DNA of 64,000 nucleotides, taken from NCBI RefSeq assembly GCF_021266465.1, contig NZ_CP089848.1, positions 3,782,001-3,846,000 on the forward strand. The letters run 5' to 3'. The stretch is from Paralcaligenes sp. KSB-10. GTDB lineage: Bacteria > Pseudomonadota > Gammaproteobacteria > Burkholderiales > Burkholderiaceae_B. Positions 6,976 to 56,761 of this stretch are shown piece by piece; within the stretch, counting starts at the first letter, position 1, and the number at the start of each line of letters is the position of its first letter. The translations under genes and the position numbers were made by a program. The notes under the pieces are model-generated. The model worked only from the letters and a program-made list of their open reading frames with translations. It did no database searches and was not told where the DNA came from.

Positions 6976-6991
6976 TGGATCAGCCGTAGGA

Positions 6992-7008
6992 GTGGCCCTT
7001 GTGGCCAC
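6992..7008. terminator. Small hairpin between the beta-oxidation genes
   Basis: A short inverted repeat, GTGGCC with GGCCAC around a 5-base loop, lies between the dehydrogenase and thiolase genes without a T-run. It may act in mRNA processing or stability and not as a full terminator. Confidence 0.25.
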
Positions 7009-7080
7009 CCTTCATGCGGGAAATAACAGGACGAGCAGGTACCCGGCTTGTTCCATGCACACGAGGTCAAGGAGTTTGGT

Positions 7081-12851: not shown

Positions 12852-13112
12852 ATGCGCGCCGCGCGCAGGCATTGAAAACAGTATTGCCCAATGACAGCCG
12901 GCGCTAAAAACAGAGATATGCATCAATCCCGATATAGAGATCTATGGGGCAGATAGGTGTTTCCATATTTCTTCCATAGGGGTTCTTCGGGCTGTATGAC
13001 TCGTTTATCCAGTGGGGTCGGCAAATTTGCTTTTCACGTTTGGTTTGAGTTGTTTAGGGCACTCGAGTGTTTACGGCGTTCGATGTTTTGGTCGCTTTGG
13101 TATTTAAAGACG

Positions 13113-13312
13113 CCGTCTATCGGGGCTGGGGGCCAGGCCCGGCACGGCGTGCTTCATCCGGATTTAGCACGTCAAGGCGGGCGTCGGGCGAACTCGCGTC
13201 GCCCCGCGCTGCGGGACGACGCTCAGACAGCGCCCGCCGACTACCCCCGCCTTGCCGAGCTAAATCCGGCGCACGCCTTACGCCGGCCCTGGCCCCCAGC
13301 CCCGATAGACGG
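13113..13312 (+). repeat. Giant hairpin repeat A1 (200 bp)
   Basis: A long imperfect palindrome. The outer arms at 13113-13137 and 13288-13312 are a perfect 25-bp inverted repeat. Next inward, CCGGATTTAGC (13158-13168) pairs with GCTAAATCCGG (13259-13269). At the tip, GTCGCCCCGC pairs with GCGGGACGAC (13198-13220). Between the tip and the inner stem lies the core shared by all copies: AACTCGC on the left (13191-13197) and GCTCAGACA on the right (13221-13229). The left flank is GGTATTTAAAGACGC (13099-13113), and the right flank GGCTCACGTAATGGCATGCC also recurs. No gene is visible in it. Confidence 0.9.
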
Positions 13313-13406
13313 CTCACGTAATGGCATGCCTGGAATGAACTTGCCGGCCCAAGGTATACCTCGATGCATGACCTCACCGTTTCTCTCGGTGCATGCCTCA
13401 ACGCGA

Positions 13407-13632
13407 GCCGCAGGGTGGGCGGTGCTGTGTAGTCCGGCGGTAGTCCAGCGCCGGGTGCTGACGAAGGGAAGGCGGGGGCCTTCGGCGGGCGCTGTCTGAG
13501 TGTCGCCCCGCGCCGCGGGGCGACGCGAGTTCGCCCGACGCCCGCCTGGACGAGGCAGACCCGGGTAGTCGGCTAGCGCAGCTAGCCGACCGCTGGACGT
13601 GCCGGACTACACAGCACCGCCCACCCTGCGGC
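13407..13632 (-). repeat. Giant hairpin repeat B1 (226 bp)
   Basis: A second long palindrome, facing A1. The outer arms at 13407-13437 and 13602-13632 are a perfect 31-bp inverted repeat. Read on the minus strand it has a side hairpin GTCGGCTAGC/GCTAGCCGAC, the same core as A1 (GAACTCGC ... ACTCAGACA) and a perfect 10-bp tip stem GTCGCCCCGC/GCGGGGCGAC (13502-13524). Its outer flank is the GACGCC-ended sequence seen at A1, here as GGCGTCTTTATAGAACTA just after 13630. It is nearly the reverse complement of B2 on the other side of the antiporter gene. Confidence 0.9.
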
Positions 13633-13662
13633 GTCTTTATAGAACTACCACCGCGCCCACAC

Positions 13663-13710
13663 AGCCCAATAGCCCAATAGCCCAATAGCCCAATAGCCCA
13701 ATAGCCCAAG
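13663..13710. repeat. 8-bp tandem repeat (AGCCCAAT), about six copies
   Basis: Five perfect copies of AGCCCAAT followed by one ending in G instead of T. It lies between hairpin repeat B1 and the antiporter gene, about 210 bases before the start codon. It is not inside a credible reading frame. Copy number of such a tract can change by replication slippage, which could alter spacing in the antiporter promoter region. Confidence 0.9.
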
Positions 13711-16637: not shown

Positions 16638-16858
16638 GCCGCAGGGTGGGCGGTGCTGTGCAGTCCGGCACGTCCAGCGGTCGTGGTGCTACGCACCCCG
16701 ACTGCCCGGGTCTGCCTCGTCCAGGCGGGCGTCGGGCGAACTCGCCCGGCCTCGCGAGGCCGGGCTCAGACAGCGCCCGCCGAAAGCCCCCGCCTTCCCT
16801 TCGTCAGCACCCGGCGCTGGACTACCGCCGGACTGCACAGCACCGCCCACCCTGCGGC
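16638..16858 (+). repeat. Giant hairpin repeat B2 (221 bp)
   Basis: The outer arms at 16638-16668 and 16828-16858 are a perfect 31-bp inverted repeat. They match the arms of B1 except for one base pair: T13430-A13609 in B1 is C16661-G16835 here, so pairing is kept. Most of the interior matches the reverse complement of B1, but both hairpin tips differ: the side hairpin is built on GTGGTGC/GCACC and the main tip is CCCGGCCTCG/CGAGGCCGGG (16745-16764). The core GAACTCG ... CTCAGACA is unchanged. The right flank GGCTTGCGTTGAGG matches that of B1. Confidence 0.9.
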
Positions 16859-17080
16859 TTGCGTTGAGGTAATGCATAGAGGTATATGTTGGGGAAGCCG
16901 CGTTTAGCCAATCGAGTCGTCAATCCATCAAGAAGTCAATCGAAGTAGATACGGCCACGTGATAGAGGCATGAGTGCAGGCACGTTAACGGTTCTATGGG
17001 TGCGGGCCCATTAACGGTAGGTGCAAGCGGGTAAATTCCGAGCATCCCGTGATGCAATTCCAGGCATGCCATTACGCGAG
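16859..17080. other. Spacer between hairpin repeats B2 and A2
   Basis: No gene or clear signal is seen. AATGCATAGAGGTATATG near 16871 corresponds to the reverse complement of the A1-B1 spacer (TGCATCGAGGTATACC in that orientation), and CAGGCATGCCATTACGCGAG next to A2 corresponds to the right flank of A1. The spacer is longer here (222 bases against 94). Confidence 0.5.
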
Positions 17081-17280
17081 CCGTCTATCGGGGCTTGGGG
17101 TCAGGACCGGCGTAAGGCGTGCGCCGGATGCTACCGTAGGGAAGGCGGGGGCTTTCGGCGGGCCATGTTTGAGCGTAGCCGCGCCAGCGGCGTAGCGAGT
17201 TTGGCCCGACGCCCGCCTGGACGAGGTAGATCCGGATCAAGCACGCCGTGCCGGGCCTGACCCCAAGCCCCGATAGATGG
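17081..17280 (-). repeat. Giant hairpin repeat A2 (200 bp)
   Basis: The inverted counterpart of A1. The outer arms 17081-17105 and 17256-17280 pair over 25 positions with one G-T pair. Relative to A1 the arms differ at two positions and both differences are compensated in the opposite arm. On the minus strand the core reads AACTCGC ... GCTCAAACA and the tip stem is GCCGC/GCGGC with a symmetric GTA/GTA internal loop. The outer flank GGCGTCTTTAAATACC (17279-17294) is the reverse complement of the A1 flank. Confidence 0.9.
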
Positions 17281-17369
17281 CGTCTTTAAATACCCATCCA
17301 CCGAATACCATAAACAAACACTTAAACAAAAAATGCGCTAATGCCGTGTCTGTTGACGGATGCGATCTC
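17281..17369. other. Spacer between hairpin repeat A2 and the sco gene end
   Basis: It begins with the conserved repeat flank and then has AT-rich sequence. No terminator hairpin apart from the repeat itself is seen, so A2 may end transcripts coming from the cta cluster. Confidence 0.4.
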
Positions 17370-30986: not shown

Positions 30987-32048
30987 ATGCGTATCCTGCA
31001 ACTAAATTTCGAGCGGGGCTGGCGCGGTGGCGAGAGGCAGACTCTGCTGTGCATGCAGGAATTCCGCAGTGCCGGGCACGAGGTTGCGCTGCTTGCACGC
31101 CTGAATGGCGAGCTGGCGCGCCATGCGCGGGCCGATGGCTTTGCCGTGCATGCTTATGCCAATGTATGGGGCCTGTGCTGGTTTTTGCTGAGCCGCGGCC
31201 GACGCTTCGACATCCTGCATGCGCAAACGGCCAATACCATTACGTGGCTGGCGGTGTTCAAGCTGTGGCTGCGCCGGCCCATAGTCTTTACCCGGCGGAC
31301 TGCCTTCGACCTGGGCAAGCGGGCTCGCAAGACCGCCTGGAAATGGCGTCGCGCCGATAGGCTGGTTGCGATCAGCGCGGCGGCGGCGGCCGAGCCGCGC
31401 CGCCTTGGCCTGGATGTTGTCGTGATCCCCAGCGCCGTTATGGCCAGAACGCTCGATCTGGCCCATGTCCAGGCGTTCTCCGCCCAGTATGGCCTGAAGG
31501 GCAAGCGTGTGCTGGCTACCGCGGCCGCCCTGACTCGTGAAAAGGACCCTTGCACGCTGATTCGCGCCGTGCATGATTTGCGTTCGCGGCGCGACGATTT
31601 TGTATTTGTGCATTTGGGTGCCGGCGGCGACGCCGAACAGGCCGCTCGCAGCCTGGTGAAGGAGCTGGGTCTGGAAAAGCACTATCTGTTCGCTGGTTTC
31701 CAGGAGCGTGTCGAAGACTTGTATCGCATCATGAGTCTGTTTGTGCTGAGTTCGCGGCAGGAGGCCTTGGGTACCAGCGTGCTGGATGCGTTTTTGTATG
31801 CGGTGCCGGTGGTGTCGACCAATGCCGGCGGCTTGAAGGAAAGTCTGGCCGGCGGACGCGGCCTGTTGTGCGAAGTAGGCGATTATCGGGCGCTGTCCGC
31901 CGCCATGGCCCGTGTGCTGGACGACGCGGCATTGCGCAAGAGCCTTATCGATAAGGCGCAGGTTTATGTCATGCTGGAGCATGATTCCGCGCGCATGGCG
32001 CAACGCTATCTTGCCGAATACAGTCGCTTGCTGGGTACGCGGTCGTAG
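30987..32048 (+). CDS. Glycosyltransferase family 4 protein
   Basis: A 353-residue GT-B glycosyltransferase. The N-terminal domain starts MRILQLNFERGWRGGERQ (the Gly-rich acceptor loop), and the C-terminal donor domain has LATAAALTREKDP and the conserved E-x7-E region SSRQEALGTSVLDAFLYAVPVVSTNAGG, cited by SRQEALGTSVLDAF. It is soluble or membrane-associated and probably builds an LPS core or other surface glycan. It follows the MFS gene by five bases. The sugar donor cannot be told. Confidence 0.83.
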   Translation: MRILQLNFERGWRGGERQTLLCMQEFRSAGHEVALLARLNGELARHARADGFAVHAYANVWGLCWFLLSRGRRFDILHAQTANTITWLAVFKLWLRRPIVFTRRTAFDLGKRARKTAWKWRRADRLVAISAAAAAEPRRLGLDVVVIPSAVMARTLDLAHVQAFSAQYGLKGKRVLATAAALTREKDPCTLIRAVHDLRSRRDDFVFVHLGAGGDAEQAARSLVKELGLEKHYLFAGFQERVEDLYRIMSLFVLSSRQEALGTSVLDAFLYAVPVVSTNAGGLKESLAGGRGLLCEVGDYRALSAAMARVLDDAALRKSLIDKAQVYVMLEHDSARMAQRYLAEYSRLLGTRS

Positions 32049-32119
32049 GTCTCGTGGGGGGGCTTTGTGGCCGCCTATAGGGGGGACTGTCTTGTCGCGG
32101 CTATTTGTGTTCTTAAGGC

Positions 32120-32347
32120 GCGGGGGTGGCGGCCCAGGCAGGGTGGAGCTCGCCTCGTCCGGTCCTGGCTGCGCCAGGACTGCCCGCGGCCGCAGCCTGG
32201 ATCGGGCGGTCGCGGAACTCGCGGGAGCGAACAGCCCCCGGCTGTTCGCAAGCGCCCCGCTCAAACAACCGCTCCCTTGAATCCCGATCCAGGCTGCGGC
32301 CGCGGCGGACTCAAGCTCGCCCACCCCGCCTGGGCCGCCACCCCCGC
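32120..32347 (+). repeat. Giant hairpin repeat C1 (228 bp), solitary relative of A and B
   Basis: Outer arms 32120-32139 and 32328-32347 form a perfect 20-bp inverted repeat. An inner stem, 32184-32206 with 32283-32305, is a perfect 23-bp repeat. The middle carries the same core as the repeats around the antiporter: GAACTCGC (32215-32222) and GCTCAAACA (about 32259-32267), around its own tip hairpin with GCGAACAGCC/GGCTGTTCGC. The flanks TTCTTAAGGCGC before it and GCTTGCGTTTAGG after it resemble those of the A/B copies. The arm sequences themselves are different. It fills most of the gap between the glycosyltransferase and ABC ATPase genes; no gene is visible there. Confidence 0.85.
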
Positions 32348-32466
32348 TTGCGTTTAGGTTTTTTGTATCGTCGTTAACCTGCGTTTTTTATGGTTACGGG
32401 CGGACCTTTTGCATGCTTACAAGCTGGCGCGACCATGAGGGGATTGCGCAGGTGCCAAGCCCGCTT

Positions 32467-56593: not shown

Positions 56594-56684
56594 TTTCCTG
56601 AGGAGCGCTGCGACGGGTCTGGGCCGCATAGTCCACACGCCCGCTAGGCTCAGGAAACGTTTCTCGATTCAACGGCGCTCATCA
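56594..56684 (+). promoter_or_regulatory. S-adenosylhomocysteine (SAH) riboswitch upstream of ahcY
   Basis: The sequence matches the SAH riboswitch family. P1 pairs TTTCCTGAG (56594-56602) with CTCAGGAAA (56649-56657); the conserved GAGGAGCGCTGCGAC follows P1; and the pseudoknot pairs GAGCGC (56603-56608) with GCGCTC (56675-56680). It turns on expression when S-adenosylhomocysteine accumulates, which is the substrate of the AhcY enzyme encoded 77 bases downstream. Confidence 0.93.
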
Positions 56685-56761
56685 TCTCCTGTACCGCAGG
56701 CGAAGGTGGGCAGTTCCGTATCTTTGCTCCTTTCCCCGTACAGGTTTATTGGATTAGAACC

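Follow-up and report, generated by a model that had tools for sequence, protein, structure and literature searches.

The nested hairpin C1, which lies in a stretch of 64,000 nucleotides of the Paralcaligenes sp. KSB-10 genome (the window, contained in the single contig of 4,450,628 bp that makes up this genome), is very probably a member of a large family of non-coding DNA repeats of Burkholderiales, dispersed and built as nested palindromes. As recognized by covariance models, the family has at least 184 members in this genome, 34 full copies resembling C1 and at least 150 of the A/B type, and its fold is kept while the sequence of the arms varies freely between copies. It is a large and apparently unnamed family of BIME-like repeats, although they are longer than BIMEs and have a core of their own, and they are probably recognized as folded DNA. 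The family seems to have neither a name nor a model in the libraries searched: an Rfam search, in gathering and in permissive mode, gave no family above the gathering cut-off and hits at chance level only, and literature searches found no description of it.

Architecture of C1 and covariation within the family

C1 spans about 240 nt between convergent genes (Table 1). The family is built of an outer stem, a side hairpin, an inner stem, an internal loop with conserved sides GAACTCGC and GCTCAAACA, and an apical hairpin; in C1 the last is the variable part, common to only two other copies. A preliminary description of this region had reported perfect arms of 20 and 23 bp, a core made of the two loop motifs, and a setting between a glycosyltransferase gene and the convergent end of an ABC operon, here of the amino-acid type, and all of this was found again: the perfect 20-bp stretch opens the 27-nt outer arms (96%) and is followed by one A·C mismatch, and the 23-nt inner arms match at 100%. 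No plausible gene was found inside C1, which shows the combination of terminal inverted repeats, its 27-nt outer arms, and absent coding capacity by which MITEs are recognized. Compared with dinucleotide shuffles, none of which, out of 200, was as stable, the fold scores z = -12.2 on the + strand and -13.0 on the - strand.

Table 1. Elements of the family in the window, parts of C1 and its neighbouring genes (window positions)
Feature	Position	Strand	Remarks
Family member A1 (class A/B)	13112..13313	+	
Family member A2, facing A1	13407..13632	-	
Family member B1	16638..16858	+	
Family member B2, facing B1	17080..17281	-	
Glycosyltransferase, C1 neighbour	30987-32048	+	
C1 conserved left flank TTCTTAAGGC	32110..32119	+	family keeps (GTT)CTTAAGAC-like sequence at this place
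C1 outer stem, 5' arm	32120..32146	+	same arm present in 29 copies
C1 match to covariance model R1	32154..32320	+	178 bits; C1 is among the sequences R1 was built from
C1 side hairpin GTCCTGGC-TGC-GCCAGGAC	32162..32180	+	fold; covariation in helix 1
C1 inner stem, 5' arm	32184..32206	+	inverted-repeat match; helix 2 of covariation analysis
C1 conserved internal loop, 5' side, GAACTCGC	32215..32222	+	
C1 apical hairpin GCGAACAGCC-CCC-GGCTGTTCGC	32227..32249	+	fold; helices 4-5 of covariation analysis
C1 conserved internal loop, 3' side, GCTCAAACA	32259..32267	+	
C1 inner stem, 3' arm	32283..32305	+	
C1 outer stem, 3' arm	32321..32347	+	
C1 conserved right flank TTGCGTTTAGGTT	32348..32360	+	
Amino-acid ABC operon, convergent end beside C1	32467-	-	

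Two other features of the window were recorded: a SAH riboswitch at 56594-56687 (+), above the Rfam gathering score, and a tandem 8-bp repeat, AGCCCAAT, at 13655-13709, which adjoins element A2.

In an alignment of 117 copies fitted to the covariance model, standard pairs fill 97.0% of the cells, a share that drops to 62.8% with shuffling and to 37-43% with sliding, and double changes are found in 49 of the 52 pairs, for a total of 1856 double-change cells; on an unfitted alignment of 15 copies (alignment A1) they are found in 30 out of 40. Nearly all changes in the stems turn one Watson-Crick pair into another, with few intermediates, and G·U pairs account for about 1% of the cells, a behaviour unlike that of typical RNAs. 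The covariation is stronger than in most RNA families.

Dispersal, position and conservation of the copies

C1 turned out to be one member of a family present throughout the genome, in which the core is common and the arms are exchangeable. The exact core pattern occurs at 19 sites, against none for both reversed-pattern controls, and BLAST with C1 as query returned 29 full-length copies, 86-92% identical, besides partial ones. The 34 full copies were recognized, together with 7 truncated ones, by covariance model R1, for which 15 divergent copies had served as input; the truncated ones are internal deletions, and the members of the A/B type were counted by a second model, made for that type. 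Unrelated arms around the same core are seen, for instance, at positions 3863968, 1527183 and 2816058. The repeat unit is about 250 bp long, the range of the family being about 170-250 bp, and the presence of copies at unrelated loci of one genome shows dispersal. The absence of any further copy combining this core with other arms would have refuted the preliminary description, but many such copies exist, and its view that the family is not tied to the antiporter is supported. "Solitary", as C1 had been called, is correct locally but misleading on the genome scale; likewise, its arms do differ from those of A and B, but are not unique to it, being shared by 29 full-length copies.

Within the same taxonomic family, R1 matches were found in 76 of the 268 genomes and 26 of the 43 genera sampled, with 9 to 56 copies per genome in the ten genomes searched in depth; related copies in other genera have unrelated arms and the same core. 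The strict core pattern is also found in Variovorax, Acidovorax, Paracidovorax, Ramlibacter, Methylibium, Rubrivivax, Albitalea, Pollutimonas and Pusillimonas. Outside the family, R1 gives a few weaker matches, some of which do contain the same core on inspection; in others, L320 and L322 among them, it is absent, and these may be due to chance. Carriage by plasmids or phages was rejected, as the search for matches there gave none.

Gene contexts were called with a simple codon-usage gene caller. Of the copies of this genome, 16 lie in convergent gaps and 3 in divergent ones, while in co-directional gaps 9 are sense and 1 is antisense; for 29 loci of other genomes, counting one copy per locus, 13 are convergent, 10 co-directional sense, 3 co-directional antisense and none divergent, with 3 undecided. 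The upstream gene is sense to the copy in 48 out of 55 cases (p about 1e-8). The preference for convergent gaps that the preliminary description had proposed to look for is present, 29 of 55 contexts being convergent against 10 of 57 gaps in the window, the only one used as baseline. Close pairs invariably face each other (+ then -), 64 out of 64 in class A/B and 16 out of 16 among the others, which is the clustered, alternating arrangement of BIMEs; in genus g2, 12 of 13 pairs lie in convergent gaps. The stem of C copies often starts about 50-65 nt past the stop codon, and is often preceded by a small GTAGGGGCGG...CCGCCC hairpin, also found alone elsewhere in the genome. Repeated GCGTTTTTTGCATGCTTATGGGCC-like units, extending up to about 100 nt, were observed in the 3' flank of C copies of this genome (for example L080, L082 and L093).

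Copies of genus g2 remain at orthologous places, with arms unique to each locus. Identity there is 96.0% in the element core, 92.0% in the upstream gene and 85-88%, with many gaps, in nearby intergenic sequence, as estimated from 27 pairwise comparisons, not all independent. That the copies are conserved at orthologous loci speaks for a local role and less for an element that is purely selfish. No target-site duplication was seen at the copies inspected, and neither a clean empty site nor a parent transposase was found; g2 loci differing by one versus two copies resemble deletion between short repeats, and their reading as insertions facing empty sites was rejected.

The RAYT (Y1) transposase, PF01797, is absent from this genome and from five other carrier genomes (G016-G019 and G021); in a sample from the same family, 3 of the 14 genomes with the repeat have a Y1 transposase, as do 3 of the 11 that lack the repeat. 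A RAYT origin is therefore disfavoured, the genome being devoid of Y1 transposase and the presence of the repeat not tracking it, and membership in the RAYT/REPIN group was rejected for Y1 absence. An IS3-type element (OrfA/OrfB, rve domain) lies in GCTCAAACA of one copy (L068, G000:C1:3545500-3548500), and a remnant of the same element cuts another (L071). Two candidates for larger mobile forms were discarded: one split copy, whose core holds an extra 1.3 kb and which was considered as an autonomous version, is an IS3-type insertion, and the contigs of genome G222 that stop close to a copy, considered as a larger carrier element, are mosaics of repeats. A tandem array in the latter genome (L135, G222:C29) has a unit of about 39 bp, composed of the element left end GTTCTTAA and part of the outer arm.

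Strand asymmetry and possible roles

When leftover stem mismatches flanked by good pairs are counted on the strand with the sense of the upstream gene, A·C is found in 39 distinct contexts and G·U in 9. Genus g2 (17 vs 3) and the other genera (20 vs 4) each show this excess; the count for this genome (4 vs 2) is too small to tell. An A·C on the gene-sense strand is a G·T on the opposite one. Polarised changes indicate that A·C arises by both G>A and T>C, and transitions at unpaired sites are symmetric, so that a mutational strand bias was rejected as the cause of the excess. Taken together, rare G·U, abundant A·C and symmetric unpaired transitions imply that pairing is judged on a single strand, the one opposite to the gene. 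When the two strands are compared, this one has the better fold in 113 of the 117 copies under RNA parameters and in 111 of the 117 under DNA parameters; among A/B copies this is true for all 42 distinct ones, and the conserved loops contribute there. Exposure of the folding strand during lagging-strand synthesis was considered and rejected: as 25 of the 34 copies have their gene-sense strand on the leading strand, the strand that folds does not serve as the lagging-strand template. Part of the asymmetry could come from strand-biased correction of quasi-palindromes.

Our preferred reading, held tentatively and at slightly less than an even chance, is a DNA-level role, in which the element is recognized by a putative partner on the strand opposite to the gene, in its folded state. 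The antisense strand of the neighbouring gene would fold into a long hairpin that bears a side hairpin and two open, conserved loops, and this structure would serve as the recognition site of a putative trans-acting DNA enzyme or DNA-binding protein. Copies would spread in bursts, of which the 29 near-identical C copies may be an example, and would be retained in fixed orientation just downstream of genes, perhaps with some benefit to the latter. In favour of this reading are the shared core with divergent arms, the covariation, the dispersal, the fixed orientation, the strand asymmetry and the greater conservation of orthologous copies than of their genes; against it count the absence of Y1 transposase, the missing target-site duplications and empty sites, the conservation at orthologous loci, and the part that strand-biased correction could have in the asymmetry. 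The broader proposal, that these are genome-wide hairpin sites in single-stranded DNA, formed by the opposite strand, which a putative enzyme common to Burkholderiales spreads and keeps at gene ends as a RAYT-independent mobile or regulatory system, we consider unlikely as a whole.

The main rival also relies on the opposite strand, but as RNA: folding at the element would stop or destroy antisense transcription before the 3' end of the gene is reached. Such an insulator explains the adjacency to stop codons, the convergent enrichment, the facing pairs, like those of genus g2 in convergent gaps, the opposite-strand folding and the local conservation; the antisense strand, however, has no U-tract, neither terminator nor promoter matches were found, and G·U is far rarer than usual in RNA helices; we consider this rival unlikely. 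The preliminary description had instead suggested a terminator or mRNA-end role, and this was not borne out. In the whole family, neither strand has a U-tract after the stem, the terminator scan at C1 gave no match on either strand, and no promoter match was found at the element; an intrinsic terminator, with a GC stem directly followed by a U-tract, was thus rejected for both strands, and the repeat is not a classical transcription terminator. More generally, an element acting at the mRNA 3' end of the upstream gene, as terminator or RNA stabiliser, agrees with the orientation, the location downstream of stop codons, the very stable fold and the precedent of REP and ERIC-like repeats (PMC3733652), but the gene-sense strand is the one with the weaker fold, with more A·C than G·U mismatches and with no U-tract directly after the stem. 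It does not display the tolerance to G·U expected of the transcribed strand of a structured RNA, and the A·C excess with rare G·U argues against an mRNA 3'-end hairpin, which we hold distinctly unlikely, and for a fold at the DNA level or on the opposite strand.

Passive upkeep of the palindromes, by self-templated (template-switch) correction during replication and with selection limited to the loops, would account for the direct replacement of one Watson-Crick pair by another, few intermediates being seen, and for the arms unique to each locus in genus g2; it is nonetheless improbable, since the mismatches of the internal loops are never corrected, and orthologous copies are conserved in the arms as well as in the loops. 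A binding site for gyrase or a nucleoid protein, as proposed for BIMEs, fits the enrichment in convergent gaps but is very improbable, because duplex binding leaves both the strand asymmetry and a covarying fold of 250 nt unexplained.

With 184 or more sites at gene ends of a single genome of 4.45 Mb and a distribution over much of an order, the family would be an annotatable feature for Burkholderiales genomes. It also offers a clean case in which to ask whether it is folded-strand selection, templated correction or a hairpin-processing enzyme that maintains perfect palindromes.

Comparison with known repeat families

A close likeness is with REP, BIME and REPIN sequences, which are also dispersed palindromes, located for the most part in convergent gaps and on the 3' side of genes, arranged in facing pairs and targeted by insertion sequences, as here by the IS3-type element in the core of one copy. 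REPs are 20-40 bp long and most end in GTAG or CGTC, those with GTAG being linked to RAYT transposases (PMC3733652). In contrast, the present repeats, at about 170-250 bp, far exceed a 20-40 bp palindrome, have a conserved internal loop, reside in a genome without RAYT and carry no such terminal tag: their ends are CTTAAGAC-like and TYGCG-like, and CGTC is present inside the element, near the side hairpin. Separately, a small hairpin starting with GTAG, GTAGGGGCGGCCCTTGTGGCCGCCC, occurs with compensatory stem variants at about 60 places in this genome (for example G000, C1:1230148-1230168; window 6989-7009), and resembles GTAG-type REPs although the genome has no Y1 transposase.

ERIC and YPAL elements, which have been grouped with MITEs (PMC3733652), are similar in being non-coding, structured intergenic repeats of 70-300 bp, often adjoining coding sequences; they differ in that no sequence relation to them was seen, no target duplication was found here, and the arms of the present family change freely between copies. 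Within a related genus, Bor-1 and Bor-2 of Bordetella (117 and 167 nt, respectively, in B. bronchiseptica; PMC2267715) are stem-loop families which, likened to the present one by description rather than by sequence comparison, are likewise intergenic structured repeats.
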